Assembly (NCBI GenBank): GCA_947479455.1
Contig: CANJZE010000017.1
Span: 1 to 64,000 of the forward strand
Direction of reading: 5' to 3'
Length of the DNA stretch: 64,000 nucleotides
Source: Bacteroidota bacterium
Lineage (GTDB): Bacteria > Bacteroidota > Bacteroidia > Chitinophagales > LD1
This document shows, in pieces, positions 7,187-32,965 of the stretch. A program made the position numbers and the translations under genes. Numbering within the stretch: position 1 is the first letter of the stretch; every line of letters starts with the position of its first letter. Below the pieces are notes generated by a model that saw nothing but the letters and a program-made list of their open reading frames with translations, was not told the DNA's origin and searched no databases.

Positions 7187-7626
7187 TTTATCCTGAGTTG
7201 TCTGGAGAGAAACATAATCAGTGCAATTTTGGCGAGGTCAGATGGTTGAAATGTAAGACCGATTAAAGGAAGTTCAATTACTCTACTGGCACCATTTATG
7301 TGCCTTCCAAATACCATCGTGTAAATCAGCAAAGGAATACTGATATACCAAAGCAGTTGCGATATCCTTGAATAATACTTATAGTTGATTATATGAGTGA
7401 AATATATCAGAAATACTCCCAATATACTTATGCCGATCTGTTTTATCAGATACGTCTCATTACCAACATTCATTTTATAAGCCAAGCTTCCTGTGGCACT
7501 GTAAACAGAAAGCATAGACACAATAAACAGGCACAGGATGATAACCCAGATAAATCTGTCCCCCTTGAAATTCTGCCCTAAAAATGAAAGTATCTTGCGG
7601 TTCACGATTGTCTTTTTTACAAGCAA
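7183..7626 (-). pseudogene. FtsW/RodA-like (SEDS) protein, N-terminal part
   Basis: Encodes the first 147 residues of an FtsW-like protein: KGDRFIWVIILCLFIVSML (membrane helix 1), YKYYSRISQLLWYISIPLL and LTFQPSDLAKIALIMFLSRQ, all in family order. The frame stops at 7183-7185 in a cytoplasmic loop. Restoring a single base after CAACT would read S-R-Q-L-Q-D-K-M-K-E and join it to the other half, giving about 400 residues, the usual FtsW length. No cell-division or cell-wall cluster surrounds it, so a paralogue rather than the main FtsW is likely. Confidence 0.75.
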
Positions 7627-13510: not shown

Positions 13511-13544
13511 CAAATATGATGGTGGTAAATGCAACCTATTTGCA
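13511..13544 (-). promoter_or_regulatory. Island promoter motif, copy 2
   Basis: On the minus strand TGCAAATAGGTTGCA (13530-13544) is a TGCAA-N5-TTGCA palindrome, followed after exactly 17 nt from its TTG by TTTG (13511-13514, within CATATTTG). It faces the 100-aa gene and also lies in the region from which the RecQ-like gene is transcribed in the other direction. Confidence 0.7.
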
Positions 13545-13691
13545 TTCCTTGAAGTAACCTTTTCTAAAAGATATTTGGTCCTGTACTTTTATCAAATTCA
13601 ATTAAGAACTTTTACTGAAATGATTCAGTTTAATGCCAATCTTAGTCGTGAAATCAAATATTTCATTTTGTTACATTGCACACTCTAAGTT

Positions 13692-16600
13692 ATGAAACAA
13701 TATCAAGCCGGGTATATACTTGACAGTATCAATGAGACGTTAAAAGAAAAGAAATTCGAAAAGGGGAGGGTAACGGGACTTCTTAAATACATGTCTTGCT
13801 TTGATCTCGAAACGACGACAAGCCTAGACAAAAAATTAGACGACCCTTTTGTTTCGGTAATTCATAACTTAATTTCTAGGGGTATCCCTACCCGACCAAG
13901 CATTTTTCTTGAGAAAGAATTTTCAACGGCTTTTGGAAAATCGCATTTAGACACTTCTGACATTGCCGAACAACTTGGCAACATCAAGTATTTACCAAAC
14001 TTTACAGAGGAAGAACAACAAAGCATTTTCGCAGCACTACATTTAGTTGATCCGCGACTAAAACTAACCGAAAGTAATTATGCTTCAAAGCTTGAAAGCA
14101 GCTTTGAAAGAGAATTCCTTTTTAAGTACTTGCCTGAGCAAAATCTCGAATTCCTATCTCAGGTATTTGAGCCGCAAAGAAAAATAAACACCATTGTAAA
14201 AGCAGAGGCAGTTAAAGATTTTCATTCACAGAGGGTAGATTTTTCTTATGAGTTTCCGTATCTACACGAAAACACTTTTACTCTTTACGGTGAAAAGAAA
14301 GTTACTTACTACAATAAAGGGTGGATTATTGAAATTGATGGTGCAAAGTTCCATACAACGAAAGAACAAAAGCTATTGGACAAACAGAGGGACAATGCAA
14401 TTAAAGATACTAAGTGGCAAACAAAAAGAATTACAGATTTCAGTAAAACAGATTTTAAGGAGTATGTCAGCAAGTCAGCTTCAATCAAAATCGTAAAGGA
14501 GAATTTCAGCAAAAAAATTGAAGGCAACTGGTTACAAATTCTCCAATTGACCTTATCTCCTTTTGCAATTGCAAGAGTTCAGAAAACAATTGTTGAGTTG
14601 ATTCTTTCAAACAACCTTGACTTAAAGAAAAAGCAATGGAACATTCTAGCAATTGAAAGAGATGTTCCTTGTGTGAACATGGCAATAGAGGATTTGAAAC
14701 AACAGTTTCAAAATCTCTATTCACTTTCAAATTTTACACTTGAATTCCCTGAAATAAATCTTCAAGTTTTAACCACAGAGGAGTTTGCAGAATCAAGTTT
14801 ACATAGGAAAGAAACGAAAACGATTACATCGTTTTCGTCATCTGTAAACTTTGATTTGCTAATTGATGTTTCAATGCTTCGCAGAAACGGAATTGAAAAA
14901 GTTGAAACAAGTTTCAAAGCCAAATGTGTTGCAACAATCCGTTCAACACATTACATAAACTCTGAACGAAAAATTTACACATCGGAGTTTATTGATTACA
15001 AACCAGCGACAGAGAAATTAGAAAACGAAACCTATCAAGCATTTTCGGAATCCGAAAAATGCTTGACCTATTTTCTTCAAAACATTTTCAGAAAGAAAGA
15101 ATTCAGACCAGGACAATTGCCAATCTTGAATCGTGCCTTACAAGGAAAAAGTGTAATCGGACTTTTACCAACAGGAGGCGGAAAATCTTTGACTTATCAG
15201 TTAGCATCAATGCTACAAGCGGGAGTTACAATTGTGATTGACCCAATCAAATCATTGATGCAAGACCAATATGACAACCTGCTAAAAAACGGAATTGACT
15301 CTTGCAATTTTATCAACTCCAAATTAAGCCGAGAAGAAAAGACAATTGCAACAAGTCAGGTTACAGAAAGCAAAATGATTTTTTCTTTTGTTTCGCCTGA
15401 ACGATTACAGATTGAAGATTTTAGAACCTCACTGAAAGAGATGCACAAAAACAAAGTGTATTTCAGCTATTGTGTAATTGATGAAGTGCATTGCGTTTCA
15501 GAGTGGGGACATGATTTTAGAACTTCATATTTAAGTCTAGGAAAAAACGTTATTGGACATTGCTGGAAAAAAGACACAAACATTATTATAGAAAATGGGA
15601 AAGAGAAAATACTCAATCCGGTTTCGATTTTAGGATTAACGGCAACAGCATCTTTTGATGTCCTTGCTGATGTTGAAAGAGAATTATCCGGCAACGGACT
15701 TACAGGGATTGATACAGATGCAATCGTAAGATTTGAAAACACAAACCGAGTTGAACTTCAATATCAAATTATAAATGTTGATGTAGAATTTGAAAGAGAC
15801 GAAAGGTTCAAACCGAAGTTGAAGGACAGGAAAGTAATTACACTTCCAGTTCATCCAATAAAGACAGACATTAAAAAGGCAACTGCAATAGAGAAGCAAA
15901 AGGAATTGCAAAGAATCATTGACATGATTCCTGAAAATATTTCTCAATTCAATGAGCAATCCGAAACAATCATTGATTGGACGAAGGATAGATTTTCAAC
16001 AGGAGAACCAACAAATAGAAATATCAGAATTGAAAATTTTGATTCTGAAAAATTCTTTAATGAAACCAATAGCAACGGAGGAATAATATTTTGTCCTCAC
16101 AGAACCGGGCTTTTCGGAGTAACAGATAAATTTAATTGGTACAAATATTCAGAAGATGAACTTGATGACAAAGGGAATATTATTCATGAAAAAGGTGAGT
16201 TTGTTTTAGACAACGACAAAAAGAAAGTAAAACTACCACCACGTTATAGGAAAGCAGTTGCTGATTGCATCAATAAAGAAAATATCAAAGTAGGAATCTT
16301 CATGGGAAGTTCAGACGAAGATGAAAGTGTAGGAAAGGAAATAGAAGCTGAATCTTTTGAGAATCAAAGAAGGTTCATCAATAACGAGCAAAATTTAATG
16401 GTTGCAACGAAAGCATTTGGAATGGGAATAGATAAACTAAATGTTCGGTTTACAATTCACTTCAACATTCCAAGTTCAATTGAAAGTTTTGTACAAGAAG
16501 CCGGTAGAGCGGGCAGAGATAGAAAGATTGCACTTTCCACAATTATTTTCAATCAACAGAAGGTTGTAAATTTCAATCAAAGAGTTTTAGAAGCTTTGAA

Positions 16601-18362
16601 ATCAAATCTTGAAGAGGATGCTTTCAAACTCATTAAGCAATTCAAGGACAGAAAATTTTACACAGAGGAAATTACAGAAATTTTAAAAGCTATTGGAAAC
16701 GATAACTTACTTCAAAATGAAATTGAAATCCTAAAGGCACTTAAAGAGAAAGGAACTATTTTTCCCGACAAGGACAATTTAGTTTTCTTTCATAGCAACT
16801 CTTTCAAAGGGCAAGCAAAAGAAATGGTTGTGATAAATGAGCTGCTTAATGAGATTCTTGAGCCAAGTAGAAGTAACTTAAACTTGCTTAATGAAAAACT
16901 GCACGAAGAAACAGAAGACGAAGATTTATGGTTAAACTTAAATGACAATTGGCTTAATGTCAGAGTTGGAAAAGCGGGGAAGGTTGGCTCAGTAAATCTT
17001 TCAAATTTCAACAACAATTTCTTTGATTCAATCTATGAAAGGAAACATGCAACACAAATTTTAGATTTTCTTTCCCTTTCTATTAGATATAAATGTTCTA
17101 ATTATAGCGACCCAACAAAACTAAAAACATGGCTGACCCAAAAAGTCAAGGGAAGTTCAGCAGCGGGAATTGAAAAGCGATTGAATAAGATTGAGTATCA
17201 GCAAGAAGTCAAACCCGAAATTGTAATTCCATTCTTTAACAAGTATGCTGACAAACCAGTTTTTCACGAAGAACTTATTTTGCTTTGCAAAAAAGTAGTC
17301 TCGGACAAATTAAGTGATAAAACAATTACAGAAGCTATTGAAGGGAATTTTGAAACCTTCATCAATAATATTTCCGCGAAATTGGAAATGGAAATTGATT
17401 CAAGACAAGAATCTTTGTTTGCATTGAAGCAATTGTATTACAGCCCAAGAGTTAAAGCCGATACAGATAAAGCAATTTTCCGTTTAGTATCTATTGGAAT
17501 TGTTGATGATTACACAGTTGATTACAATAAGAAATGCTACACAGTTATTATCACAAAAAAAACAAATGATGAATACATTGAACAACTGGGTGTGTTCATG
17601 CGGAAATATTATTCAGCTAACAGAGTGGAAACCGAACTGCAAAAAGTTTTGGATTACCGAGGGGATACAGTTCTTCAAAAATGTTTGACATTTCTAATAG
17701 AATTTGTCTATGAGGAAATTGGCAAAAAAAGATTGCGTTCTGTTGACGACATGATACTCGCTTGTGAGTATGGATTAAAGGAGAATGGGAATGAAGAACT
17801 AAAAGAGTTTATCTTCTTTTATTTTAATTCCAAATATGGAAGAGAAAACTATTCTTACAAACGTAGAATTGATGGGCAAGAAGTTGATGCTTCGTTGAAG
17901 GCAGATACAAATAGAGGAACTGAATATGACTTTGATATAGTTTGGAAATATATTCAAGCAGTTAACGAAGATAGTAGCGGAGGACATATAAATAATGCAA
18001 AGCATCTTAGAGGAGCAGCATTACTTATGCTAAGAGACAAATTAGATAACGGTGCTTTACACTTACTAAAAGCATTCACACTATTTGTTTTAGGAATTGG
18101 TAAAAATGAAATAATAAAGGAAGAAGCAAAGCAAAGTTTAAAATCAGGGTTCAAACTTTTCAGAGAGAAATATAGAGAACTTACTTTTGAAGAATTAGCT
18201 TCAAACATTGAAAAGTATAAAATAGAGGTAATTAACAACGCAAACAACAGGAATGAAGTTAGGGCAATCTTGAATGAAATAATTGAGGAAATGTATTTAG
18301 AGTTTCACAACAACTGGCTTAAAACATTTAACGAAAAATATCTTTTAGAGTATGACAGATAA
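13692..18362 (+). CDS. Nuclease-RecQ helicase fusion, probable defence protein
   Basis: A very large (1556 aa) cytoplasmic protein. Residues about 140-250 look like a PD-(D/E)XK nuclease of the DUF559/Vsr type: ESSFEREFLFKYL, RVDFSYEFPY, and WIIEIDGAKFHTTKEQ followed by a D-x-x-R-D segment. Residues about 470-950 are a RecQ-type SF2 helicase: FRPGQLPIL, Walker A TGGGKS (about 495), DEVH (about 597) in VIDEVHCVSEWGHDFR, TATAS, and FVQEAGRAGRDRK (about 940). An unusual insert separates the two RecA-like lobes. The remaining 600 residues are helical and unrecognised. It overlaps by 11 nt the coiled-coil membrane gene, so the pair is translationally coupled and probably works together. The defence role is inferred from architecture and setting. 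Confidence 0.85.
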   Translation: MKQYQAGYILDSINETLKEKKFEKGRVTGLLKYMSCFDLETTTSLDKKLDDPFVSVIHNLISRGIPTRPSIFLEKEFSTAFGKSHLDTSDIAEQLGNIKYLPNFTEEEQQSIFAALHLVDPRLKLTESNYASKLESSFEREFLFKYLPEQNLEFLSQVFEPQRKINTIVKAEAVKDFHSQRVDFSYEFPYLHENTFTLYGEKKVTYYNKGWIIEIDGAKFHTTKEQKLLDKQRDNAIKDTKWQTKRITDFSKTDFKEYVSKSASIKIVKENFSKKIEGNWLQILQLTLSPFAIARVQKTIVELILSNNLDLKKKQWNILAIERDVPCVNMAIEDLKQQFQNLYSLSNFTLEFPEINLQVLTTEEFAESSLHRKETKTITSFSSSVNFDLLIDVSMLRRNGIEKVETSFKAKCVATIRSTHYINSERKIYTSEFIDYKPATEKLENETYQAFSESEKCLTYFLQNIFRKKEFRPGQLPILNRALQGKSVIGLLPTGGGKSLTYQLASMLQAGVTIVIDPIKSLMQDQYDNLLKNGIDSCNFINSKLSREEKTIATSQVTESKMIFSFVSPERLQIEDFRTSLKEMHKNKVYFSYCVIDEVHCVSEWGHDFRTSYLSLGKNVIGHCWKKDTNIIIENGKEKILNPVSILGLTATASFDVLADVERELSGNGLTGIDTDAIVRFENTNRVELQYQIINVDVEFERDERFKPKLKDRKVITLPVHPIKTDIKKATAIEKQKELQRIIDMIPENISQFNEQSETIIDWTKDRFSTGEPTNRNIRIENFDSEKFFNETNSNGGIIFCPHRTGLFGVTDKFNWYKYSEDELDDKGNIIHEKGEFVLDNDKKKVKLPPRYRKAVADCINKENIKVGIFMGSSDEDESVGKEIEAESFENQRRFINNEQNLMVATKAFGMGIDKLNVRFTIHFNIPSSIESFVQEAGRAGRDRKIALSTIIFNQQKVVNFNQRVLEALKSNLEEDAFKLIKQFKDRKFYTEEITEILKAIGNDNLLQNEIEILKALKEKGTIFPDKDNLVFFHSNSFKGQAKEMVVINELLNEILEPSRSNLNLLNEKLHEETEDEDLWLNLNDNWLNVRVGKAGKVGSVNLSNFNNNFFDSIYERKHATQILDFLSLSIRYKCSNYSDPTKLKTWLTQKVKGSSAAGIEKRLNKIEYQQEVKPEIVIPFFNKYADKPVFHEELILLCKKVVSDKLSDKTITEAIEGNFETFINNISAKLEMEIDSRQESLFALKQLYYSPRVKADTDKAIFRLVSIGIVDDYTVDYNKKCYTVIITKKTNDEYIEQLGVFMRKYYSANRVETELQKVLDYRGDTVLQKCLTFLIEFVYEEIGKKRLRSVDDMILACEYGLKENGNEELKEFIFFYFNSKYGRENYSYKRRIDGQEVDASLKADTNRGTEYDFDIVWKYIQAVNEDSSGGHINNAKHLRGAALLMLRDKLDNGALHLLKAFTLFVLGIGKNEIIKEEAKQSLKSGFKLFREKYRELTFEELASNIEKYKIEVINNANNRNEVRAILNEIIEEMYLEFHNNWLKTFNEKYLLEYDR

Positions 18363-19677: not shown

Positions 19678-21270
19678 TTAGTTTTCTACTTTAAATAATT
19701 TCCAACCCCACTCCTTTTTTTCAGAGTTGTAAGTTCGTACCGCTTGCCCCTTAACTATAAGCCCGTTTGAGAGATTCGATGCTTTTACCGTGGATGGATG
19801 TATGTATGCATCGTCTATAAATCCGAAATTTTTTCCAACTGCAATTCTGACAGTTCCAGAAACTGATTTTAATAACGAAGAAGAGGCGCCAGGTCCGTTG
19901 GCTTTCGAAATAGAGTAAACTTGCTGCGGACCTTCCGCTTTCTTTTCCTTAAACCGGACATTCAAGACATCTCCAATATTTACATCAGTTATAAAACGGT
20001 CATACTTAAAGAATCCAGACTGGTTATCTACTGAAACAAAATTCAATATTTTCTTATCCGAATTTACAAAGTCAACTACAATTTCGTACTCTGGAAAGTC
20101 GGAAAATAATAACGCTTCAGCTGCAACCTGATGCTGTTTGTAAAAGTCGATGTTGTTGTCTTTTGAAGGTCCGTTTATAAACCAATCCTGTTTCATCCAG
20201 TTTGCTACAACAACTGGAATTTTAAACTCTTTCTCAGTCCTTGCAATTACAAGTAATTCAATTTCCTTTTTCGCTTCCTTAAAGAAACCTTTTCTAATCA
20301 GTAAAGCTGCCATCCTTTGACGAATTCCCACCAGAAATTCTTCAGGCGTTCTGCATAATAAAGCCTTGCAATAGCACGATAAAATCTGGTCTTCATCATT
20401 TAAAGCTTCACTCAAAACCTCCCACACCCAGAAATCATTTAATTTTTTTCTGGCAAATGGCAGTAATGCCGATAACATATTTTCCTTATCTCCAAGGGCC
20501 AGCAAAAGTTTGGCTTTGAAATAAGGTGGGTATTGGAACTCCGGGTGGTCATCAATTACCTTATCTAATTTCGGTATAAATGCCTTTATCTTTTCAATAT
20601 CTACGAACTTGTCATTGTTTTTGGGCAATAAGTGTTTAGCATAGGCAATAAATGCTTGCTCCGCAATCGACATAACATCCTTTCCGTTTGGAATTTTTTC
20701 CTTATCAAAGTCCTCTTTTCTGAAATTTTCAAATCCCCACCAATCTGCCAATTCAAAATATTTATCCCATTCTTTCAGCAACTTATGAAAAGCTTTAAAA
20801 AGAAAGCTGTAAGCCTCTGAAGGTTTGCTGTAAGAAAAAGTCTTAGCAATTTGTAAAATGTCATACCCCGCCTGTGGAAACAAAACGAACTTTGGCAAAG
20901 CTCCAGCGTTATCGGAACTTTTCATAATAGCAAATACAACTTTCCCCACTTGCCAAGCCAATTGGTCAAAAAGCATTGTTTCATTTTCAGGAAGATCTAA
21001 ACTTGTAACTTCGGACAAATACCTAATGAAGTTGTCTATCTTATTTAACTGTGCGTTAGCTTTCAAATAGTCAAATAAGACCCAACTAATATTTCTCCTT
21101 GCCCACAACACTTTGTTATCACTGTTAACCACAGCTTTCTTATCTTCTTCACTTAGTCCTTCGGCAAAGGAAAACGCACCTATCAATTCATCCAACTCTG
21201 CTTTCGCCATCAAGTAAGCCTCATCCGTTTTTCCTGCTTTCCTTAATTCCTTTATTTCTTTAGCCGGCAT
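19678..21270 (-). CDS. Helical-repeat protein with C-terminal OB/cold-shock-like domains
   Basis: A 530-aa cytoplasmic protein. Residues 1-350 are helical with TPR-like pairs (for example AFIAYAKHLLPKN, YFKAKLLLALGDKENML). Residues about 370-530 are strand-rich with two short OB/cold-shock-like units (NQSGFFKYDRFITDVNIGDV and GTVRIAVGKNFGFIDDAYIH). The first start region overlaps the helicase stop by 11 nt, showing translational coupling. A role as an RNA/DNA-binding scaffold for the helicase is an inference; I do not know a named function. Confidence 0.7.
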   Translation of the reverse strand: MPAKEIKELRKAGKTDEAYLMAKAELDELIGAFSFAEGLSEEDKKAVVNSDNKVLWARRNISWVLFDYLKANAQLNKIDNFIRYLSEVTSLDLPENETMLFDQLAWQVGKVVFAIMKSSDNAGALPKFVLFPQAGYDILQIAKTFSYSKPSEAYSFLFKAFHKLLKEWDKYFELADWWGFENFRKEDFDKEKIPNGKDVMSIAEQAFIAYAKHLLPKNNDKFVDIEKIKAFIPKLDKVIDDHPEFQYPPYFKAKLLLALGDKENMLSALLPFARKKLNDFWVWEVLSEALNDEDQILSCYCKALLCRTPEEFLVGIRQRMAALLIRKGFFKEAKKEIELLVIARTEKEFKIPVVVANWMKQDWFINGPSKDNNIDFYKQHQVAAEALLFSDFPEYEIVVDFVNSDKKILNFVSVDNQSGFFKYDRFITDVNIGDVLNVRFKEKKAEGPQQVYSISKANGPGASSSLLKSVSGTVRIAVGKNFGFIDDAYIHPSTVKASNLSNGLIVKGQAVRTYNSEKKEWGWKLFKVEN

Positions 21271-23464
21271 ATTCTTCGCTTTTAATTCTTTGAATAGCAG
21301 TCTTAATATCTGAAATTAAAACTGGACTGTTACATTTTTTCACCAACGGAACCACTCTACCGAAAAACCCTTGCTGGTTATATTGGAAATCAATCTCCGC
21401 TTTTTCACTTCCTCTTGAAAACGTATACCTTTCTTTATACTGTTGGTGGTTTATATCTTCAATAGATATTCCGTATTCAGAAACATTTGCCGTTATGTCT
21501 TCAAAAAGAGTTCTGGTAAAAGGCAATTTTTCTTCTACAGCTGCATCAAATTCTAATTTAGTAATAATAGTTTCAGAGGTGTTTCTTTTTATACTCAGAT
21601 TCGGTAATGCTGTGATCAGATCTCCCACCTCTTTTAGAAATTCCTTAGAATTTGTTCCAATTGAAATTTCCATGAATTTTCCGTTGAATTTATTGTTCCC
21701 ATCAATCCATGTTTTCAAGGCAGAGGTCTTCGCTTCACGCTTAAATGAATATCTCACTTCATATCCTACTTTCTCCCAACCGGTAACTTCAACATATTTA
21801 TGAGACAGAACAGTCAATACTTTGATGAAATGATCTTGTAGTAGAATATCCTTTTCGAGTAAGCCAAATCTTTGCAACTGGGTTAGAATAGCATCATCCA
21901 ATTCTATTTCTTGTGGATGTTGGTTGATTCCTGTAAGTTCGGTCAAACTATTCAGCACAGCGTCATCGGTAAATGCCATTGTAGAATAAGAATTAAAATA
22001 TGGGGGATTAACAGCATAGAGCTTTTCAGATGCTCTGGTTACAGCGGTATAAGCCCACCGGTAGAAGTCCTGATTCGTTTTACCCGCTTTTCTTTGTGAT
22101 TCACGGAAACAGTCATATCCTTCTCGAGAGTCATGGTCCCAAAATGTAAAAACATGAGGCCATTCGCCACCCTGTGCTTTATGACAGGTTACGGCATATC
22201 CATATTTTACCATGATCGAATTATAAAATGGATCATTTAGAATCGCATCTTTAAATGCATCAGTCTTTGGCTTTAGATTAGGATGACGGTTTTTGAAGTC
22301 TACATATAGAGCCTGCATTTCATCCGGTTTAAGGAAATTTTCACCAAACAGAAAATTATCCAGCATCTTACCTCGAACAACTTTGCCATTCGTTTCCCCA
22401 TCAGGAAAAACTAATTCAACATTCCGCCATTTAAGCAAAACAGATTTCTTACCGCGCAGATGAATTTCCCTGTCTAATGAAACCTGATCTACTTCATTTA
22501 CTACAGCAAATTCTCCGTTCATAATCCCTTTACGATAATTATTGGCACCTATTATTACGATGTCTCCTTTCTGAATGGGAAGACCTTTACTACCATATTT
22601 CAGTTCTCTGATTTCAGCATTTAGCTCTTTACAAGTTTCATTCTTATAAGCAACTATTATTTTCCTTTCATTGATTCTACTATAGACATCTAAAAACTCT
22701 TCGTATGAAGGATTGATAATGTCCGTTCCGTTTTGGCTCAGATTAAAATCATTAAAAAAACCGGAAGTGAGTGACTTACGTAATCTCGCAGCTACTTTCA
22801 TAACTCCACTCGATTCGCTGTATCTTTTTACTTCTTTCATTTCCACCTGCTCTGAAACTAAACTGAATTTCTCAGCCAAATAATTTTCATCAAATGCCTT
22901 AGATGAATTATCTCCTACCGGAGGTAGCTGGGCAGGGTCGCCCACAAAAATAATTTTGGTATTGCTTGTTTGCTCCTTAACCCGTGAATAATAAATCAAA
23001 TCGGTAAGTAAATGTCCGGTGCCAAATCTGAAAAACTCCCCTTGACTAAATGCATCGGAAAGCATCGATGACTCATCTACGATAAAAATCTTATTGGCAA
23101 CATCATCGTTGTTGCGGATTTTATATGCGTAGTAGAACGTTTTCTCCTCATTCTCGTTCTTAGGTTCTATTTCAACCAGCTCTTCGTAATTGTAAATTGC
23201 TTTATGGATAGTGGTGGCTTCTTCACCAGTTTTTTCACAGATCACTTTAGCCGCTCTTCCAGTTGGTGCCATCAGGCATACAGGTCTTTCAATCGAATTC
23301 AGATAATCTACAAGACCTTTGAGTATAGTTGTTTTACCACTGCCGGCATATCCTTTCAACATGAAGACATGACTATTTCCTGAAAGGAATGCCTCCAATT
23401 TCTCCAATGCGATTTGCTGATCGTTGGAAAGTTGAATTTCAGGAAAATGATTTAAAATACTCAT
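21260..23464 (-). CDS. RecD/Dda-like SF1B DNA helicase
   Basis: A 734-aa helicase of superfamily 1B. Motif I is GYAGSGKTT (about residues 38-46), then MAPTGRAAKVI (Ia), FIVDESSML (II), FVGDPAQLPPVG (III) and YAVTCHKAQGGEWPHVF plus WAYTAVTRASEKL (V/VI), which are the typical UvrD_C_2 motifs. The last 230 residues are an unrecognised alpha/beta extension. It opens a three-gene operon with the helical-repeat/OB protein and the DUF3127 protein, and a motif-type promoter lies 17 nt upstream of its ATG. Mobile elements often carry such helicases for their own repair or replication; a defence role is also possible. Confidence 0.9.
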   Translation of the reverse strand: MSILNHFPEIQLSNDQQIALEKLEAFLSGNSHVFMLKGYAGSGKTTILKGLVDYLNSIERPVCLMAPTGRAAKVICEKTGEEATTIHKAIYNYEELVEIEPKNENEEKTFYYAYKIRNNDDVANKIFIVDESSMLSDAFSQGEFFRFGTGHLLTDLIYYSRVKEQTSNTKIIFVGDPAQLPPVGDNSSKAFDENYLAEKFSLVSEQVEMKEVKRYSESSGVMKVAARLRKSLTSGFFNDFNLSQNGTDIINPSYEEFLDVYSRINERKIIVAYKNETCKELNAEIRELKYGSKGLPIQKGDIVIIGANNYRKGIMNGEFAVVNEVDQVSLDREIHLRGKKSVLLKWRNVELVFPDGETNGKVVRGKMLDNFLFGENFLKPDEMQALYVDFKNRHPNLKPKTDAFKDAILNDPFYNSIMVKYGYAVTCHKAQGGEWPHVFTFWDHDSREGYDCFRESQRKAGKTNQDFYRWAYTAVTRASEKLYAVNPPYFNSYSTMAFTDDAVLNSLTELTGINQHPQEIELDDAILTQLQRFGLLEKDILLQDHFIKVLTVLSHKYVEVTGWEKVGYEVRYSFKREAKTSALKTWIDGNNKFNGKFMEISIGTNSKEFLKEVGDLITALPNLSIKRNTSETIITKLEFDAAVEEKLPFTRTLFEDITANVSEYGISIEDINHQQYKERYTFSRGSEKAEIDFQYNQQGFFGRVVPLVKKCNSPVLISDIKTAIQRIKSEEYAG

Positions 23465-23481: not shown

Positions 23482-23515
23482 CAAAGGTTTATAGCTTTAA
23501 TGCAATCTATTTGCA
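23482..23515 (-). promoter_or_regulatory. Island promoter motif, copy 3
   Basis: On the minus strand TGCAAATAGATTGCA (23501-23515), a perfect TGCAA-N5-TTGCA palindrome, is followed 17 nt after its TTG by TTTG (23482-23485, within AACCTTTG). The helicase ATG begins 17 nt further on. Confidence 0.7.
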
Positions 23516-23524
23516 TTACTGCCA

Positions 23525-25273
23525 TTAAACTATCCTGGGAAATATTTTTCCTAAAGTTTGATTTATTTCTAAGCAATCTTCCTTACGCATTTTTTGATAA
23601 TCTGCTAAGTTATCAGGGTGGATAAATTTTTTTCTTGTCAGTTGATAAGAATAAATTTTCCGGGCTAATGCTATATGACTAACATCTCTCGTGATATCAA
23701 AAGACAACTTCTTAAGTATGTTGTAAATTTTTAGCGATGTGGAAGTTTTGTAGGGATCCCAAACAGCTTGAGCGGCAAATGAGTATGCATTATTATATTG
23801 GCAACTCTCAATAACTGCCCCGGTGTCTCTAAAAACCAGTTGTTTATTGGTTGGATTATATTCAATATAATAATCGTTCAATAGTTCGTAAATTTTGTAG
23901 TAAGACAAAAATGACCAACTAAAATTAAGGTCGTTTTTAAATGAACCCTTCAAAAGTTCAAAAGCCTGATCCAGTTGAATGATAACCTCGTTCTTTAATT
24001 TAAGCTTAGCAAGTGCCATTAAACCACCTCCCCCGCCCACAGAACTAATTGATGTAAGATGCTCTTTGATCATTTTCGTTTCTATTGCTATCTTTTTCAA
24101 AAAGCTTCTTTCTGTTGCTTTTCTTAGTTCGTATTTTAGGTTTTCGAAGAAATTGTAAGATACAGTTGTAATTTCGTTCTCTGGAGATATTTTAAGAATA
24201 AACCCATCAATACCTCTATTTTGTAATTCAAGTAAATTCCAGACCTTGTTTGACGCTGTGATCGCGATAACTTGAAGCCCCGGATTAATTTTCTCTTTTA
24301 TTTTTTTTAAGATTTTCAATCCTGTCATGTCATCAGCGGTTTTGTCTTTTTCGAAATCTTCATCATGCAAGCGCAGATCAAGAAGTATAATATCAGGATC
24401 ATAAGATAGTATGGTTTTCTCTATGTCATCAACCAGTTCATCAGAGGTCTCAAAATCTGTAAATTGTTTTGCGGGTTTATAGCAACTATATCCAATGTTG
24501 ACTTGATTAGAAAAAATTTTGGTAAAAATTTCATCCCAACCTTTTTGGTATTCGTCATCTATAAAAAGAATTTTTTGGGCTTGCCCTGTTAAGTTAAAAT
24601 TAGGTATAGAGGATATTGAGACCGCAGGAATTTCAACCTTTGCTAAAAGGTATTTAAAATATAACTGTGCTCTGAAGTAATCGATTTGTTCCTTAATTTT
24701 CTCATTAAGGCCCAAGGCTTGTGATAGCGTTAAGATTGACCACTCATTGGCAGTAGAATGATGTGAACTTGATTGGTTGTGACTTGAAATATTGATTTTA
24801 TCCGTTGCTATGTTACATGAATTCAATCCACCACTTACCACCTTGTCAATTTCATCTTTATGAGGCTTACATAAGTGGTTGCCAGATGCTGTAATCATAT
24901 CACCTCCATCAGCCAATTTTATTATGTGCAAAGGATCCATCCAGCTAACAAAAATTATCGGAAGAAATCTTTTTTCCGAAAGCGATTGTGTCAGTCTTAT
25001 ATGCTGAGCTAATCTTATCCCCGAAAAATCGAGCGGAGTGGTTGTAAGGGATAAAGGGATTATGTAATAGTCAATATTACAGGAAGCAATCTGTGATATA
25101 ATACTCGCAGAACCATTACTAATGAAGGTATCTATATTTACAAAGTCCCCATTTAAGTCTGACTCTTCCGGAAGTTTATATCCAATGGAAATACCATTCT
25201 CCATTTTGAGAATAGGACCGTATCTGCTATCGGTTGAATCAATTAGTAATGATTTCATTTGAGTGAATTTCAA
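23525..25273 (-). CDS. Tandem receiver-like protein of retron 2
   Basis: A 582-aa protein. Residues 235-370 form a response-regulator receiver domain with all key positions: acidic pair D239/D240 in ILFIDDEY, phospho-acceptor D299 in IILLDLRLHDED, T339 in IAITAS and K361 in GFILK. Residues about 60-130 (FSGIRLAQHIR, FLPIIFVSW) look like a second, degenerate receiver. The C-terminal 200 residues are helical and unknown; there is no DNA-binding or kinase domain. The start overlaps the previous gene by 35 nt. With the 230-aa protein and the reverse transcriptase it forms a three-gene operon behind the retron RNA. Confidence 0.75.
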   Translation of the reverse strand: MKFTQMKSLLIDSTDSRYGPILKMENGISIGYKLPEESDLNGDFVNIDTFISNGSASIISQIASCNIDYYIIPLSLTTTPLDFSGIRLAQHIRLTQSLSEKRFLPIIFVSWMDPLHIIKLADGGDMITASGNHLCKPHKDEIDKVVSGGLNSCNIATDKINISSHNQSSSHHSTANEWSILTLSQALGLNEKIKEQIDYFRAQLYFKYLLAKVEIPAVSISSIPNFNLTGQAQKILFIDDEYQKGWDEIFTKIFSNQVNIGYSCYKPAKQFTDFETSDELVDDIEKTILSYDPDIILLDLRLHDEDFEKDKTADDMTGLKILKKIKEKINPGLQVIAITASNKVWNLLELQNRGIDGFILKISPENEITTVSYNFFENLKYELRKATERSFLKKIAIETKMIKEHLTSISSVGGGGGLMALAKLKLKNEVIIQLDQAFELLKGSFKNDLNFSWSFLSYYKIYELLNDYYIEYNPTNKQLVFRDTGAVIESCQYNNAYSFAAQAVWDPYKTSTSLKIYNILKKLSFDITRDVSHIALARKIYSYQLTRKKFIHPDNLADYQKMRKEDCLEINQTLGKIFPRIV

Positions 25274-25931
25274 CGTTTATAATATTTGCTAACTCCTCCA
25301 GAAGGATTGAAAGCTCTTCATTTATGTTTACCATCTTTCCATCCGAAATTGTTTCGAAGCTTGATAAAATTTTACTTTTAGGGAAGAATTGACAAAAAGA
25401 AGATGTATAGCCAATGCGCTGCTTAAGAACGTTAAGAGGAACTGATTTCCCGATTTCTTGAATACTACCTAAGTAGTTCTGAATTTGATCACTAAGAGTA
25501 TAAAGCAGATTTAATTTCCATTTTTTTCCAAATGCAAGAATCTGAAGATTGGGTTTATCTGTGTTTTCTGCATCATCCAAAAAATCTATCAACCTACTGC
25601 TATACAACTCTTTTGAGTTGATTGAAAGAATTCTATTATTTAAAATGGTAGCTGGAGTTCCGCCTGAAAACAGCACTAAATACTTTTCGGTATTTATAAC
25701 GTAGTCTTTTAATAGAAGCCTATAGGATTGTTCTAAGAATGATCTATGAAAAATAATCACAGAATATTGATCAAATACAGACGTATCTCTCTCATTCATT
25801 TTCGCCTTCAAGGAAATTAGGTATTCGCCTTGAATATTATCCAGAACCGAATGCTCAAGTGCGTTACTAATACTTTCACTATATATCTCCTGTCTTGACT
25901 TTCTGTCGTCAACTAATACAACCTTTTTCAT
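25239..25931 (-). CDS. Pseudo-receiver protein of retron 2
   Basis: A 230-aa protein starting KKVVLVDDRKSRQEIYSES, which fits the first strand and acidic pair of a receiver domain. At the place of the phospho-acceptor strand it reads YSVIIFHRSFLEQSY, so the Asp is missing and phosphorylation is unlikely. LVLFSGGTPA and ILSINSKELY follow as later strands; the last 100 residues are helical. It overlaps the reverse transcriptase stop by 4 nt (ATGA) and the downstream receiver gene by 35 nt, so all three should be made together. Family not known to me. Confidence 0.65.
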   Translation of the reverse strand: MKKVVLVDDRKSRQEIYSESISNALEHSVLDNIQGEYLISLKAKMNERDTSVFDQYSVIIFHRSFLEQSYRLLLKDYVINTEKYLVLFSGGTPATILNNRILSINSKELYSSRLIDFLDDAENTDKPNLQILAFGKKWKLNLLYTLSDQIQNYLGSIQEIGKSVPLNVLKQRIGYTSSFCQFFPKSKILSSFETISDGKMVNINEELSILLEELANIINVEIHSNEIITN

Positions 25932-28675
25932 AGGTAAAACTTTAAAATATGCGTAAATCCTTTTATGGATGAGTCTTGAATTTCTTGAAAAAAAGGGTCA
26001 TTATTAGCTGTAAGATAGTTCAACCTGTAAGTCTTTCCGTCACCAAATTTTGACTCTACGGACCAATCACATAAATGCACAAAACATACTTTCAGATAAA
26101 AACAATCTCCGGACCTACCATCAAGTTTTGGATCATTAACCATTCGTTGACTGAAACTACCTACTTGTGTAATTCTAACTTCAATGTATGGCTGATTATT
26201 CTTGGTATCTATTGCAATGTCGCTACGTTGAATAATAGCCTTGTCGAAAGTGCTGCGTCCACCTTGAATGAAAGATTCGAAAATTCTTTTTAACCCTTCT
26301 TCTATCTTTTGCGTGTCTGTAAAAAAAGACAGCCCTTTAAGTTTTTCAAGATCGGCCGTATCTAATTGGATAGCAAAATGCCATACTTTATCCCATAAAT
26401 GAAGAATCAAATTGTAGAATTGACTTGTGTCTTCTCTAAACTCAATTTCACTTTTGAAAAGTACCGTTACGTCCTTAAAACTATAAAGTATTTTGCCATT
26501 TACCTCCAATTGCTTTTCAATCGGTAACGGATAGTTCAATGGATTTTCTTTTGGATTTTCAGTAGCCCATTTACGGAGTTCCAAACTTGACCAGCCAAAA
26601 CGTACAAAATTTTTACCCCAACCTTGGGATTTTCGGGCTACCCCAGCTTTCCATATAAACATAAAATCTGGAGATGAAATAAAGAGATCAATTTTTTTCC
26701 AAAGAGATTTAGGTATTTTGTATTGCCACTTATTATCTATCCATACTCTGTATTTTCTTTTGATAGTATTCCATTCTGCGGTTAACTTATTCGAGAATTC
26801 GATAAAGCCAGAATAATGTCCTTCATCTTCTCCTATACCAAATTCCCAACTGTGTGTTGAATATTTCAAAAGGCTTTCTGAACTTTGAAATAATTTTAAA
26901 ACAGTAAGAGTGCCTAATGGGTTATGTTGTTTATTAACAATCACTTCAGGTAAATTCTCAACCTCATTTTCATACGGCACTTCCGTTCCCTTGCGTATAG
27001 TAATATCTCTATTTAAAGTGCCTTTCTTTTTTCTCTCTTTAGCTGTTATTACAACTCGAACATTAGAATCTTTTATGTCGAAGTTTTCTTCGACTTGTGT
27101 AAACTTTCCTCCAAAAGCATTTCCAAAATTTTCCAGAATAGTAATTTCTATTATGGCCTTGTTTCTTACCAATCCTGCGTTAAAACATAATACTTGGCTA
27201 TTTAAACGGTCTTCAAAATTTTGCGCTGTTTTAACCGATTCGGGAATACCCTCCGTATCTCCCAATTCAAAATTATCTATCTTAAATTTTTGATCTGAGA
27301 TTTCAATTTTCATACCGGCTACCAGTTCGCCACTTGTTGTAAAATACCGATAATACCCGTTGGTTAAATTATATACTTGCTCAAAACTCTTTTGATACCC
27401 TATCTTTACAAGATCAGTACCTTTCACCATCATTAAAACTTCTTTATATTCCTCAGGAGTAATCCATCCTGCTTTTTCGGAATCAGTTATATCTGTTTTG
27501 ATATTTGGGATATTTGCAACTAACCCCTTTGGAGGAACCGCTATTTTAACTGATTCAATTTTCCTTTCAGTCAGTTTCTCAAAACGGATGGATAATCCAA
27601 CGTACACTCCATCCTTCTTTCCTTTTACCATTTTCAGATACTCCAACTTTCCCCAGATAACATGTGCCATATTGGGTTTGCCTTTTAGCAAATGCCCTCT
27701 ATCGCCAACGTAATCTCTTGTAAAAATTTGCTCTGCTTTTATGTAGCCGTAATGTTCCCAGAGATATAGCCACAAGCGCAATCGCTTAATGAAGCGCTTA
27801 GATACATTCACTTTCTCATTCACAATTAAACCGGTTACTTCCTGCCTGTAACCGGGACGCTGTAACCGCACTTTACTTTCTTTAATATGAAACCCCTGCG
27901 CGGCAATTATTCGGTGCAGCTCTTTTATAAAATCGCCATCCTTCTGATAAACATTATGCATGGATGAGAAGGTTATATCATCTGCATAGCGGGAATACTT
28001 CAGTCCAAAACGTTTTGCCACAGCGGTTAGATAAAAATCTAATCGTTCGCAAATAATGTTTGTGATGGTTGGAGAAGTTGGAGCTCCTTGAGGTAAAACA
28101 TTTTTCACCACTTTTGTCCATTCGCCCTTTTCATCCATACGCTCCACCTCCATTTCTTCAAAGCACAAACCTCCAATGATATTGGCTAAGTCAAGTCGGT
28201 CGCTTTTCTTATTAAGGTTAAACGGTGGATGCTGTAACCTTCCCCATAATCTTGCCTGATCTACACTTGGGAAAAAGTCTTTCAAATCAATATTGTAAAC
28301 GTATAAACTGCCGGTATGCTGCTTGGCATTATCTACAATTGATTTATTCGCAACAAATCCGGTTGCCGCTTTATGAGGTTCATATGTGCATTGCAACACT
28401 AAATTCAGGCACTTCAAAACAGACTTCAGCCCTTTATTAGGAGCGTGAATAGTTCTTGTTCCGCCCGCTTTTTTAGGAATAGAAAAACGCACATACCTTC
28501 TCCGGTTAGCTTTGGGATTAGAGTGGAAGCGAAGATGCTTTATTTCAAAAGGCACAGCCTTGTCCCCGTAAATTATTGGCTTTGTATAATTCAGCAGTGC
28601 AAGGAAATCTTGCTTGCTTTTCATTTGCTGAAAAGCATCTTTTATAAAAAGTAATTGTTCGTCTTCAAGTTTCAT
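25928..28675 (-). CDS. Retron reverse transcriptase with long C-terminal extension (retron 2)
   Basis: A 915-aa protein. Residues 1-370 are a reverse transcriptase with both retron hallmarks, NAKQH (116-120) and VTG (280-282), the motif A segment YNIDLKDFF and the catalytic YADD at 230-233. Residues about 400-915, over 500 residues, are an alpha/beta extension I cannot assign: it contains ARKSQGWGKNFVRFGWS, QFYNLILHLWDKVWHFAIQ and a late QRSDIAID, YIEVRITQVGSF pair. An msr-msd-like RNA ends 14 nt upstream. Two receiver-like genes follow with overlapping ends. In retron biology the extension or the partners would be the effector, with the RNA-DNA hybrid holding it inactive. Confidence 0.85.
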   Translation of the reverse strand: MKLEDEQLLFIKDAFQQMKSKQDFLALLNYTKPIIYGDKAVPFEIKHLRFHSNPKANRRRYVRFSIPKKAGGTRTIHAPNKGLKSVLKCLNLVLQCTYEPHKAATGFVANKSIVDNAKQHTGSLYVYNIDLKDFFPSVDQARLWGRLQHPPFNLNKKSDRLDLANIIGGLCFEEMEVERMDEKGEWTKVVKNVLPQGAPTSPTITNIICERLDFYLTAVAKRFGLKYSRYADDITFSSMHNVYQKDGDFIKELHRIIAAQGFHIKESKVRLQRPGYRQEVTGLIVNEKVNVSKRFIKRLRLWLYLWEHYGYIKAEQIFTRDYVGDRGHLLKGKPNMAHVIWGKLEYLKMVKGKKDGVYVGLSIRFEKLTERKIESVKIAVPPKGLVANIPNIKTDITDSEKAGWITPEEYKEVLMMVKGTDLVKIGYQKSFEQVYNLTNGYYRYFTTSGELVAGMKIEISDQKFKIDNFELGDTEGIPESVKTAQNFEDRLNSQVLCFNAGLVRNKAIIEITILENFGNAFGGKFTQVEENFDIKDSNVRVVITAKERKKKGTLNRDITIRKGTEVPYENEVENLPEVIVNKQHNPLGTLTVLKLFQSSESLLKYSTHSWEFGIGEDEGHYSGFIEFSNKLTAEWNTIKRKYRVWIDNKWQYKIPKSLWKKIDLFISSPDFMFIWKAGVARKSQGWGKNFVRFGWSSLELRKWATENPKENPLNYPLPIEKQLEVNGKILYSFKDVTVLFKSEIEFREDTSQFYNLILHLWDKVWHFAIQLDTADLEKLKGLSFFTDTQKIEEGLKRIFESFIQGGRSTFDKAIIQRSDIAIDTKNNQPYIEVRITQVGSFSQRMVNDPKLDGRSGDCFYLKVCFVHLCDWSVESKFGDGKTYRLNYLTANNDPFFQEIQDSSIKGFTHILKFYL

Positions 28676-28689
28676 GATAAAAAGTTCCC

Positions 28690-28938
28690 GAATGCCTGCC
28701 TTCTATTCTTTGTGTATGAAACAGTTAAAACGATTTCAGTTCTAACGAATACTTTATATTATATTATTAATATCTATAACATAACATATATATCTATTGC
28801 TCCGTAATCATGCAAAATGATCGGTAAAAATGACCAAGAAACATTCAATGCAGGGATTACTCCCTACACTATCAGCCGATCTGAAACAACCTTTCGGTAA
28901 TTTCCAGCTGACACAATCAATATTTTCGGCAGGCATTC
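28690..28938 (-). ncRNA. Retron msr-msd RNA (retron 2)
   Basis: An 11-bp perfect inverted repeat, GAATGCCTGCC in the transcript, has a1 at 28928-28938 and a2 at 28690-28700, enclosing about 227 nt just upstream of the reverse transcriptase. Inside are an ACC-GAAA-GGT hairpin near the 5' side, an outer GATCGG/CCGATC pairing with an inner GTAGGGA/TCCCTGC stem around a GTAA loop, and an AT-rich region. The promoter motif ends 13 nt before a1, so the transcript 5' end should fall right at a1, as in known retrons. Confidence 0.65.
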
Positions 28939-28951
28939 AAGGAACGTGATG

Positions 28952-28985
28952 CAAATGAACGTACACTGAGTGCAATCTATTTGCA
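28952..28985 (-). promoter_or_regulatory. Island promoter motif, copy 4 (retron 2)
   Basis: On the minus strand TGCAAATAGATTGCA (28971-28985), identical to copy 3, is followed 17 nt after its TTG by TTTG (28952-28955, within TTCATTTG). It stands directly before the a1 arm of the retron 2 RNA and not before a protein start, which fits a promoter for the retron transcript. Confidence 0.7.
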
Positions 28986-29020
28986 TGGGATATAAATATA
29001 TTATTAAGATGCATCCCCTT

Positions 29021-29410
29021 CTATTTTTTTATATTCTTGGATGCTAATGAGGTTAATACGTCCTCTAAATCCTTTTTCACGAACGAATTTACGTCGCAAC
29101 CTGTGTATTTTAAATTGTGCCTTAGCCGAATTATGTCAGTTATCATAGTCGCACGAAAATTCAGAACTCGTATACAGTAAGTTTTGAATACGGAATGAAC
29201 CATGTTGTCTTGAATATCATATCCATGTTCTAAGAAAAACAGAAATACATATCGCAATGCCATGTTGTAGTCAGACAAATAATCGTTCCTTATAGAAAGT
29301 TTCTGAAGTGCATTACTTTCAATCCTCATTCTATGTTCGGGTCTGGGACTTTTAAATATGAGCCCAGAGCGAGTAAACTCATTAATTATAGAATTGATTT
29401 CGCTATTCAT
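29021..29410 (-). CDS. Unknown 129-aa helical protein
   Basis: No family is recognised. The product is predicted to be mostly alpha-helical, with basic patches (RPEHRMRIESNALQKL, RATMITDIIRLRHNLKY) and no membrane segment or signal peptide. Its start overlaps the GreA-like gene by 8 nt, so it is the last gene of the four-gene operon divergent from the sigma54 activator. It ends 36 nt before the retron 2 promoter motif. Confidence 0.6.
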   Translation of the reverse strand: MNSEINSIINEFTRSGLIFKSPRPEHRMRIESNALQKLSIRNDYLSDYNMALRYVFLFFLEHGYDIQDNMVHSVFKTYCIRVLNFRATMITDIIRLRHNLKYTGCDVNSFVKKDLEDVLTSLASKNIKK

Positions 29411-29885
29411 TAATGATATTTTTAATTTTTATAATGGCCCTTCCTCGTGGGAGCTCAACTTCATTCTCTTCATCAACAAGCGCGCTGCAAAGAGCTTTTC
29501 CCATAGGCGAATCATAACTTATCCTATTGTTCTTAATATCGGATTCCCCACTACCAACTATGTCTACTATTTGGCAAACAAAATCTTCAGTATTTCTTTT
29601 GATTAGAAACTCGACTTTGCAACCAATCTGAACTTTCTTATTGTCTATTGATGACTTTTCGAAGATGGATGCATTTGCTATTTTGTGTTGCAGAACACCA
29701 ATTTCTGAAGCAAGCATTTCTTCCTGCTGCCCGAGTTGGGTCCAACCCGGGTTGTCGTGCCAACCGTCCCCACTCACCGAGTAGGCATGCGCCTTTTCGT
29801 CCCTAAGAGTTTTGAGCATATCAATCTTATTATTAAGCCTCTCTTGCAACACTTTGAGACCAGTTTTTGTAATTTTTGTTTTCAT
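29403..29885 (-). CDS. GreA-like transcript cleavage factor homologue
   Basis: A 160-aa protein with GreA/GreB layout: an N-terminal coiled coil (ITKTGLKVLQERLNNKIDML, then an acidic-containing tip SGDGWHDNPGW and a second helix QEEMLASEIGVLQHKIANA) and a C-terminal FKBP-like domain (VQIGCKVEFLIKR, RISYDSPMGKALCSA, VELPRGRAIIKI). Canonical GreA would bind RNA polymerase through the C-terminal domain and insert the coiled-coil tip into the secondary channel. The tip differs from GreA (no clear DE-L pair), so it may act on the polymerase or a nuclease without stimulating cleavage. It belongs to the cupin-kinase operon. Confidence 0.75.
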   Translation of the reverse strand: MKTKITKTGLKVLQERLNNKIDMLKTLRDEKAHAYSVSGDGWHDNPGWTQLGQQEEMLASEIGVLQHKIANASIFEKSSIDNKKVQIGCKVEFLIKRNTEDFVCQIVDIVGSGESDIKNNRISYDSPMGKALCSALVDEENEVELPRGRAIIKIKNIINE

Positions 29886-31450: not shown

Positions 31451-31485
31451 TGTTATATTATATAATTGTTGTTATATTGTATAAT
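31451..31485. repeat. Two AT-rich direct repeats before the sigma54 activator
   Basis: TGTTATATTATATAAT (31451-31466) recurs as TGTTATATTGTATAAT (31470-31485) with one mismatch. The second copy runs into the ATG of the activator at 31484. They may be binding sites for autoregulation, or the activator's promoter. Confidence 0.5.
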
Positions 31486-32965
31486 GAAAATTTTAATCAC
31501 TTGGATCGGATTTAATGAAGATTTTATTAAAACACCCTCAGGGAGTCTGCAGATTTCCGCTAAAGGCTTCACCTCTAGCTTACATAAGGACATATATGAG
31601 GCATATAAATTTGAAAAACATATAATACTGTGTACTACTGACAGCTCTAATCAGATTTCAAAAGAATTAGAAGTTAGAAAATACCTTTTGCGACAATATC
31701 TTAAAGACATTTACGGTACTCACAATGTGGAATTTGCCGATTCTGGTATAGACAAAGGAGAATTGCAAAATTTTCCAATTATAGAAAGTCACTTGCGCAA
31801 TTTTCTACAAAGGTTTGATGCGACTGAAGAACTTCATGTTGTTGCGGGTACTGGTCCGACATCTGTAAGCATGGCCTGGTGCACTTTGAGTTTGTCAATG
31901 GAAGACAAACTACAGTTACATGTAATGCAACTTCCGGAATATGCATCTGAAGGAAATCTTTCATTACTAAAAGAGATCAAACCGCATATTAATAAGCTAC
32001 TTGACAACAAACTCAGAGAGAAAAATCTGAATATAGATTTACCGCACAACATATACAAAGACGAGATAATTCTTAAGGAATATGAAACTGCCGAAGCAAT
32101 TGCCCCAGCTATTGATGTTAACGTACTGATACTAGGTGAAACCGGTTGCGGAAAAGACTTACTTGCTGAGAGAATCGTAGAAATTTCACCACTACCCCGT
32201 GATAAATATAAAGCCATAAACTGCGCTTCCCTTTCGGATGATCTCTTAGGCAGCGAATTATTTGGTCATGTAAAGGGTGCGTTCACAGGTGCTAATGACC
32301 ACAGAAAGGGTTTATTTGAAGAATGCAATGGTGGTACTTTGTTCTTAGATGAAATTGGAGATATTTCCAAGTTTATGCAACAAAGTCTTCTCAGAGCAAT
32401 AGAAAATAAACAAATCAAAAAAATAGGTGGCAACCAGATAATAAATAATGTCCGGGTTAGGATAATTGCTGCAACGAATAACAATCTATATGGAAAATGT
32501 AGGTCAGGCAAATTTAGATGGGATTTATATTATCGTTTATGTTCGATGGAAATTGAACTAGAGTCCTATAGGACTAGAACCAAACAACAGCGTAATGGGG
32601 CAATTAAATTTTATATCCAACAGGCAGAAATTAAATGGAATAGAAAAATAATTATCACCGAAGAAGCACTAGAAATAATCAAATCATATAGCTTCCCAGG
32701 TAACTTCCGCGAAATTAATAACTCGATTAATGCACTATTTGCACTTGGCATTAAAACGATAACAAAGGAGGTACTACCAAAAAGATTTACCTATACTGAG
32801 GCTCTTATCGATGAAAGCTATGAATCAGTATTAAAGAAACACTGTATAAGCTTGTACCAAAAATACAACTATGATCTCGCAGCTTCTAGAAAAGCTTTAG
32901 GCTATAAAAACAGTACCCAATTGAAAAATAAACTCATTGAATGGGGTGTATACAAGGACGAGTAA
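31484..32965 (+). CDS. Sigma54-dependent activator with RtcR/CARF-like sensor
   Basis: A 493-aa regulator. Residues 1-190 are a Rossmann-like sensor related to the RtcR/CARF group, with the glycine loop VVAGTGPTSVSMAW at about 119-132. Residues 200-430 are the AAA+ sigma54-activator domain: Walker A GETGCGKD (218-225), the sigma54-contact loop GAFTGA (265-270) and Walker B GGTLFLDE (283-290), then a conserved SFPGNFRE. The last 40 residues are a Fis-type helix-turn-helix (SRKALGYKNSTQLKNKL). RtcR proteins sense RNA with damaged ends and induce RNA repair. I took the ATG at 31484 and not an upstream TTG. No consensus sigma54 promoter (TGGCAC-N5-TTGC) is visible in the shared intergenic region. 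Confidence 0.85.
   Translation: MKILITWIGFNEDFIKTPSGSLQISAKGFTSSLHKDIYEAYKFEKHIILCTTDSSNQISKELEVRKYLLRQYLKDIYGTHNVEFADSGIDKGELQNFPIIESHLRNFLQRFDATEELHVVAGTGPTSVSMAWCTLSLSMEDKLQLHVMQLPEYASEGNLSLLKEIKPHINKLLDNKLREKNLNIDLPHNIYKDEIILKEYETAEAIAPAIDVNVLILGETGCGKDLLAERIVEISPLPRDKYKAINCASLSDDLLGSELFGHVKGAFTGANDHRKGLFEECNGGTLFLDEIGDISKFMQQSLLRAIENKQIKKIGGNQIINNVRVRIIAATNNNLYGKCRSGKFRWDLYYRLCSMEIELESYRTRTKQQRNGAIKFYIQQAEIKWNRKIIITEEALEIIKSYSFPGNFREINNSINALFALGIKTITKEVLPKRFTYTEALIDESYESVLKKHCISLYQKYNYDLAASRKALGYKNSTQLKNKLIEWGVYKDE

Follow-up and report, generated by a model that had tools for sequence, protein, structure and literature searches.

A retron-type locus in a Bacteroidota genome with two-component-like partner proteins and a predicted HEPN-like effector

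Within a 64,000-nucleotide stretch of DNA from a Bacteroidota bacterium (GCA_947479455.1, contig CANJZE010000017.1, positions 1–64,000; hereafter the window), we studied a locus at positions 23482–28985 that, judged by the sequence of its reverse transcriptase (RT) and of the structured RNA encoded beside it, is a retron of a type outside PADLOC-DB 2.0.0, whose partners are a two-component-like module and an effector resembling HEPN proteins. Three minus-strand open reading frames (ORFs) specify a 915-amino-acid (aa) fusion of the RT with the Pfam domain HisKin-conflict (PF22561), a 230-aa receiver-like protein (iREC1), and a 582-aa protein that carries an inactive receiver (iREC2, PF22563), an intact-looking receiver and a HEPN-like C-terminus; their ends overlap, as an initial annotation of this DNA had described. 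We consider the locus to be probably a retron-type abortive-infection system, in which the alarm would be relayed through two-component-like proteins to a HEPN-like RNase. The partner set had been placed outside the known retron types, and this held when it was checked: iREC1 and the receiver-effector of the window gave zero PADLOC-DB 2.0.0 matches at E 0.1 (iREC1 had no Pfam match either), the retron-type matches covered the RT part only, and a literature search, which was shallow and did not include the source papers of PF22561 and PF22563, turned up no retron with receiver or histidine-kinase partners. Weak PADLOC matches were seen in homologues (Csx1, 0.015, in L034; SduA, 0.0056, in L018; PDC-M45C, 0.016, in the HisKin of L040), while an NCBIfam scan returned only RT and response-regulator matches below the cut-off and a few other weak ones.

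The claim that the receivers belong to the retron was borne out by the recurrence of the same set in 12 of 12 loci. The search for homologous linked loci, a check that had been set beforehand, found PF22561 above the cut-off in 10 distinct genomes and a Pfam match on two Chryseobacterium plasmids. The genomes came from overlapping draws, with matches in 5 of 395 genomes drawn from the class, 2 of 395 drawn from the phylum (both already counted), and 1 of 10, 5 of 250, 2 of 249 and 1 of 46 genomes in four orders that were chosen for containing a PF22561 match. The plasmids were obtained by tblastn with the HisKin of L034, which matched 2 of 72,556 plasmid records, both from Chryseobacterium (Pfam 6.4e−32 and 1.2e−33); the window HisKin found none among the plasmids by tblastn. 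The RT is fused to HisKin in seven of the 12 loci (the window, L017, L033, L034, L035, L036, and L039) and is the gene directly before it in the other five (L018, where the contig end cuts the RT, L019, L020, L040, and L041), and the iREC and REC genes come after HisKin in all of them. In a second draw of 395 genomes from the class, strong iREC matches fell in five genomes, the same five as HisKin, followed by a sixth match just above the cut-off (G386, 27.5 vs. 27) and a seventh below it (G101). One further PF22561 match (G1126) was dropped, being below the cut-off and in a frame with stops. With twelve Bacteroidota loci sharing this gene set, we appear to be dealing with a type of retron whose signal runs via two-component parts.

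Four of the 17 other genomes of the window's genus gave matches confined to the RT part, the whole protein being matched in none of them, and beyond the phylum, where 14 control genomes and the plasmids were covered, the control genomes held no PF22561 match. A scan of genome contigs with the 915-aa protein gave no relative; a scan with alignments gave, among the matches listed, one true relative (Mucilaginibacter rigui) and six receiver-only matches, and the receiver-only match L023 proved to be an ordinary CheY-type regulator. Scans of viral contigs with receiver alignments found none, nor did tblastn of the L034 effector against phages. That the genes are chance neighbours in a defence island might be suspected from the other defence-like genes of the window (a DpdF-like helicase and a second retron-like RT), yet we regard this as very unlikely because the linkage is conserved: fusion or adjacency was found in 12 of 12 loci, the ends overlap in the window and the distributions of iREC and HisKin match, while RT identities of 38–51% to the window RT in four loci speak against recent copies.

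The retron hallmarks NAKQH and VTG, which the initial annotation had reported, lie at residues 116 and 280 of the window RT, with YADD at 230; the protein matches RVT_1 (Pfam, 1.3e−20), and its best PADLOC matches are retron RT models, with RT-Protease_XI at the top (3.1e−95). The same model was the top match of 9 of the 10 other HisKin RTs scanned, a set in which the 266-aa fragment of L018 was unmatched at 1e−70 and from which L041 was left out. Upstream of the RT, a msr-msd-like RNA with 11-bp a1/a2 arms had been proposed; the arms were found (GAATGCCTGCC, a1, 28928–28938; GGCAGGCATTC, a2, 28690–28700), and both folding and covariation back the RNA. The stretch 28676–28985 folds at z = −8.0. 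Eleven HisKin loci have DNA upstream of the RT (L018 was excluded, as its contig ends), and when stems were sought within the stretch that runs from 300 bases before the RT to its start, the arm pair was the best uninterrupted stem, with G-U allowed, in 10 of the 11, spanning 152–266 nt. It was unmatched by 60 shuffles in six loci (the window, L017, L019, L020, L035, and L039) and was reached by one shuffle each in L036 and L041, two in L034 and three in L040. Across eight aligned RNAs, 97.2% of the cells of the arms and first stem (18 pairs) were paired and 28 cells were changed on both sides, compared with 8.3 in shuffles (0 of 500), whereas sliding the partners by 1–3 columns lowered pairing to 26–49%; further pair types were no better than shuffles (190 of 500), and the test favours the structure because the latter was derived from the same alignment. 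A covariance model built from nine loci recovered the held-out RNAs of L040 (E 3.9e−7), L041 (5.2e−7), and L093 (7.5e−4), each just upstream of an RT, and missed L094, the next match having an E of 0.47 (29 sources, 439 kb). In the window, which was in the training set, model R1 matched 28831–28938 with 79.6 bits, and a scan of the host genome with the model gave no other match at E ≤ 0.001.

The part of the fusion protein beyond the RT had been described as an extension of unknown fold, in a system with no kinase domain. Both statements were mistaken, since the extension ends in HisKin-conflict (residues 582–914, 6.3e−53), a kinase-like domain in which ATP-binding motifs are not visible; the residues before it (~382–581) have no Pfam match. 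All 10 aligned HisKin domains share a histidine in a LKxxTHxxD-like context (H608 in the window), which we tentatively interpret as an H-box. With regard to iREC1, which had been called a pseudo-receiver without the phospho-Asp, a profile of 12 homologues aligned with the system's own receiver domains (hhalign score 35.6, 55 columns, probability 70), and 20 column-shuffled targets reached at most 14.9. After the strand that bears the phospho-Asp in receivers, all 12 proteins have a histidine (H62 in the window), in a register set by reading, which is an interpretation because the hhalign match spans only the C-terminal half; so read, the description as a pseudo-receiver fits. A complete and a degenerate receiver had likewise been predicted in one protein, and the 582-aa protein indeed contains the iREC domain at residues 41–131 and Response_reg at 287–370 (4.8e−7, 30.4 bits vs. 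a cut-off of 30.2). The receiver residues DD/D/T/K are kept in 9 of 9 aligned proteins; L040 and L041 have DD, D, S, and K, and L020 has DD, D, and S, its K position having been left out.

One could also suppose that the receiver module is a phosphate-independent sensor of nucleotides or metabolites that arms the HEPN RNase, with the retron as a second input. A prediction of such a role for conflict receivers is attributed to Burroughs and Aravind (in an excerpt of PMC8195603), and WYL regulators, divergent neighbours at five related RT loci (the HisKin loci L019, L020, L036, and L039, as well as L093), hint at nucleotide-linked control of expression. Against this stand the fact that no ligand-binding motif was identified and the scope of the proposal, which covers kinase-less receivers, whereas a kinase-like domain is present here in 12 of 12 loci, and we therefore judge the idea rather improbable.

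A HEPN-like domain at the C-terminus of the receiver protein, overlooked in the initial annotation, is the likely effector of the system. R-x4-6-H, given as the motif of HEPN RNases in an excerpt of PMC3710099, was found near this C-terminus in 12 of 12 loci (as a motif alone, without a chance control), and an alignment of 11 effectors has the His in every sequence and the Arg in almost all of them. Four of 11 effectors matched HEPN_RiboL-PSP (6e−5 in L033, 1.6e−4 in L035, 0.0019 in L034, and 0.041 in L017), always on the stretch that bears the motif, and matches to HEPN_MAE_28990, under the cut-off, had values of 0.0035 and 0.013. The effector profile aligned with ten HEPN proteins of Bacteroidia at a hhalign score of 35.1 (probability 48), as against at most 9.2 when shuffled, a comparison that is partly circular because the ten references were chosen for having the motif; with kinases it scored 13.7, inside the shuffled range. 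The helicity of the C-terminal domain comes only from a poor model, with a predicted local distance difference test (pLDDT) value of ~35.

On the reading that we prefer, the RT and its dedicated structured RNA, being encoded together, should yield multicopy single-stranded DNA (msDNA), a step that is well supported by comparison. It is reasonable, by analogy with known retrons, that the RT-RNA-DNA complex restrains its partners; together with HisKin-conflict, it would keep the downstream proteins inactive and sense a change caused by a phage. HisKin would then act on the intact receiver, either through a conformational contact or by passing phosphate from its H608 to D299 of the receiver, with iREC1 possibly serving as a tether or buffer. 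Phosphotransfer is the least certain part of this step because the kinase-like domain is without recognisable ATP-binding motifs. Lastly, the HEPN-like domain, once freed, would cut host RNA and growth would stop.

Several results weigh against this sequence of events. None of the 10 aligned HisKin domains shows the N-box Asn or DxGxG (in a register that comes partly from a weak hhalign alignment); the hhalign comparison of HisKin with 20 ordinary HATPase_c kinases from the host gave 25.4 vs. at most 17.2 when shuffled, at a probability of only 3.9 (E 0.011), and a search of the HisKin profile against PDB sequences found no kinase, the top match being PCNA (E 0.012). Phosphotransfer by this kinase-like domain is doubtful. 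In the effector, every HEPN match is under the Pfam cut-off, 7 of the 11 proteins scanned, the window copy included, have no such match (L020 was left out), and the window motif, RKKFIH, is divergent. AlphaFold2 models, for which two-row alignments were used as inputs (the second with its pairwise alignment out of register mid-way), failed at pLDDT 34.5 and 35.2 and confirm no fold. With regard to the RNA, another stem beats the arms of L040 by one point when a longer stretch is considered, and the arms of L033 are imperfect and extend into the annotated ORF start.

The relatives of the RT bear on how the alarm would be passed on. In a tree of 52 out of 74 RTs (73 collected plus L094), the 12 HisKin RTs and two RTs from viral contigs form a single clade with support of 100/99, and one of the latter, L093, is the nearest relative of the RT in the window, the two being 62% identical across 355 columns. 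In both viral loci the adjoining gene differs and no HisKin, iREC, or REC lies beside the RT: in L093 (5998–8045) the RT is followed by a 241-aa protein with RNESSH, and in L094 (5884–8311) it is split into two ORFs and followed by a 309-aa protein with RNMNH, both partner proteins having zero Pfam or PADLOC matches. Viral RT loci numbered 51 and 67 in two scans, and partner genes were read for L093 and L094. Because these RTs of the same clade have other next genes, the lineage swaps partners; a protein with an RN-H motif may be its common element, which we offer as a suggestion only. Two more RTs of the same genome were noted, namely a retron-like one in the window at 10364–11365 (RT-Protease_XI model, 2.2e−98), which has a ~90% identical counterpart in G015 and a 145-aa neighbour (9868–10305) without family matches, and a third on contig C8 (82961–83671, RVT_1 9.7e−15).

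The two viral RTs without adjoining HisKin, iREC or REC, one of them with the RNESSH partner (L093), favour a conformational scaffold, in which HisKin, iREC1, and iREC2 would have no catalytic activity and would serve just to keep the HEPN protein bound to the retron complex, while the intact-looking receiver would be structural or nucleotide-binding; the model for this is the RT and winged-helix protein of the type IX retron Kva2, which consists of RT, winged helix, and HEPN (excerpt of PMC13405049). The ATP motifs unseen in 10 of 10 aligned HisKin domains and the His at the presumed phospho-Asp position of 12 of 12 iREC1 proteins point in the same direction, but an invariant H-box-like His (10 of 10) and a kept receiver DD/D/T/K (9 of 9) are unexpected without phosphorylation, and we hold such a scaffold to be quite possible without expecting it. 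At the other end, the msDNA complex could be the sensor of a true phosphorelay, in which a disturbance by phage would send phosphate to the receiver and so turn the HEPN RNase on, the donor being the histidine fused to the RT, or the phosphate passing through the His-substituted pseudo-receiver; this version, the donor included, is put forward tentatively and seems to us on the unlikely side.

Among the known systems, PADLOC retron types XI (RT-protease) and XII (RT-TIR) resemble the window in having an effector-side domain fused to the C-terminus of the RT. They differ in that this part is HisKin-conflict in the window, where two more receiver genes and a HEPN-like effector are present and no protease or TIR was matched. 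Detocs, said to have been described by Rousset et al. in 2023, reportedly comprises a histidine kinase, a stand-alone receiver, and a receiver-effector fusion, and its kinase is said to be catalytically competent and to phosphorylate two receivers. It has the same three-part plan as the window set, in which, by contrast, the sensor is a retron RT with its RNA, the effector is HEPN-like, the stand-alone receiver is without the Asp, and the kinase motifs are degenerate. Both the HisKin (PF22561) and the iREC (PF22563) domains, as their Pfam names tell, have already been noticed in conflict systems, and both were matched in window proteins; HATPase and REC are also named among the domains of predicted systems of E. 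coli in a figure legend of PMC13092281. In the type IX retron Kva2, according to the excerpt of PMC13405049, a retron RNA-RT sensor guards a HEPN RNase, as predicted for the window; in the window set, however, the HEPN-like domain is part of a receiver protein and retains the R-x4-6-H that is reportedly missing from Kva2. In addition, RT_IX matches the window RT less well than RT-Protease_XI does (151.9 vs. 318.1 bits), and Pfam gave no winged-helix match in the window unit.

Table 1. Features of the retron-type locus and of the adjoining genes in the window
Feature	Positions	Strand	Evidence or remark
Operator-like dyad RTGCA-N7-TGCAY (GTGCAATCTATTTGCAT)	28970–28986	.	upstream of retron RNA
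Retron-type noncoding RNA (msr-msd)	28687–28941	-	covarying arms and first stem, covariance model
RT-HisKin fusion, 915 aa	25928–28675	-	ORF, Pfam and PADLOC matches
Retron RT domain, residues 46–381	27533–28540	-	NAKQH / YADD / VTG
HisKin-conflict domain, residues 582–914	25934–26932	-	Pfam PF22561 6.3e−53; H-box-like H608
iREC1, receiver-like protein, 230 aa	25239–25931	-	ORF, homologue profile, invariant His
iREC2-REC-HEPN-like protein, 582 aa	23525–25273	-	TTG start; codon 6 is an in-frame ATG
Inactive receiver (iREC2, PF22563), residues 41–131	24881–25153	-	Pfam 2.9e−16
Receiver domain	24149–24580	-	D239/D240, D299, T339, K361
HEPN-like C-terminal domain (predicted), R547-x4-H552	23528–24109	-	motif; profile matches in four homologues
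Second dyad copy	23500–23516	.	upstream of RecD/TOTE genes (neighbouring unit)
RecD-like helicase with TBP-TOTE domain	21260–23464	-	PADLOC PDC-M16A/B pair, Pfam TOTE
S1CSD-TOTE / DUF7017 protein, partner of RecD-like gene	19678–21270	-	PADLOC PDC-M16A/B pair, Pfam TOTE

The island motif that had been placed upstream of the RNA, taken here as RTGCA-N7-TGCAY, is present at 28970 and enriched in the window, where three copies compare with 0.30 expected (0 of 100 shuffles). The third copy (13529–13545) lies before the DpdF-like gene, and the dyad may possibly be a shared operator of three defence units. It was also found upstream of the RT in L019, L020, L036, L039, L040, L041, and L093, as well as on one other RT-bearing viral contig (L088/L136), and was absent from L017, L033, L034, and L035. 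The RecD and S1-TOTE genes lie downstream in 5 of the 12 loci (the window, L019, L039, L040, and L041) and share the operator in the window, so that the retron and its receivers might be part of a larger unit in which the helicase pair is a nucleic-acid effector or sensor. Neither gene was found by tblastn in 15–20 kb of L017, L018, L033, L034, L035, and L036, however (the 6.4-kb contig of L020 was uninformative), and the pair has a separate promoter region and falls into separate families in PADLOC (PDC-M16A/B) and in Pfam (TOTE); we think a larger unit improbable, and the pair may be neighbours that form a separate system. Other genes of the window include a 1556-aa DpdF-like helicase protein (13692–18362), with related DNA in L018, a sigma-54 activator (31466–32965), which we take to be RtcR-like and to which a gene close to the L019 copy of the system is related, a GreA/GreB-like gene near the island unit (29403–29885), and a FtsW/RodA match over two overlapping ORFs (6416–7626, profile 3–121 and 132–353) that could reflect a frameshift.

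Characterised retrons guard their effectors directly. The retron guard of the window seems instead to address an RNase via parts of two-component signalling, and close relatives of its RT are found without them, which makes the two a natural comparison for how a retron alarm travels. A true phosphorelay, if that reading is right, would be, to our knowledge, the first case of retron sensing joined to two-component chemistry. The system also offers a concrete test case for whether degenerate kinase and receiver domains of immune systems still move phosphate.

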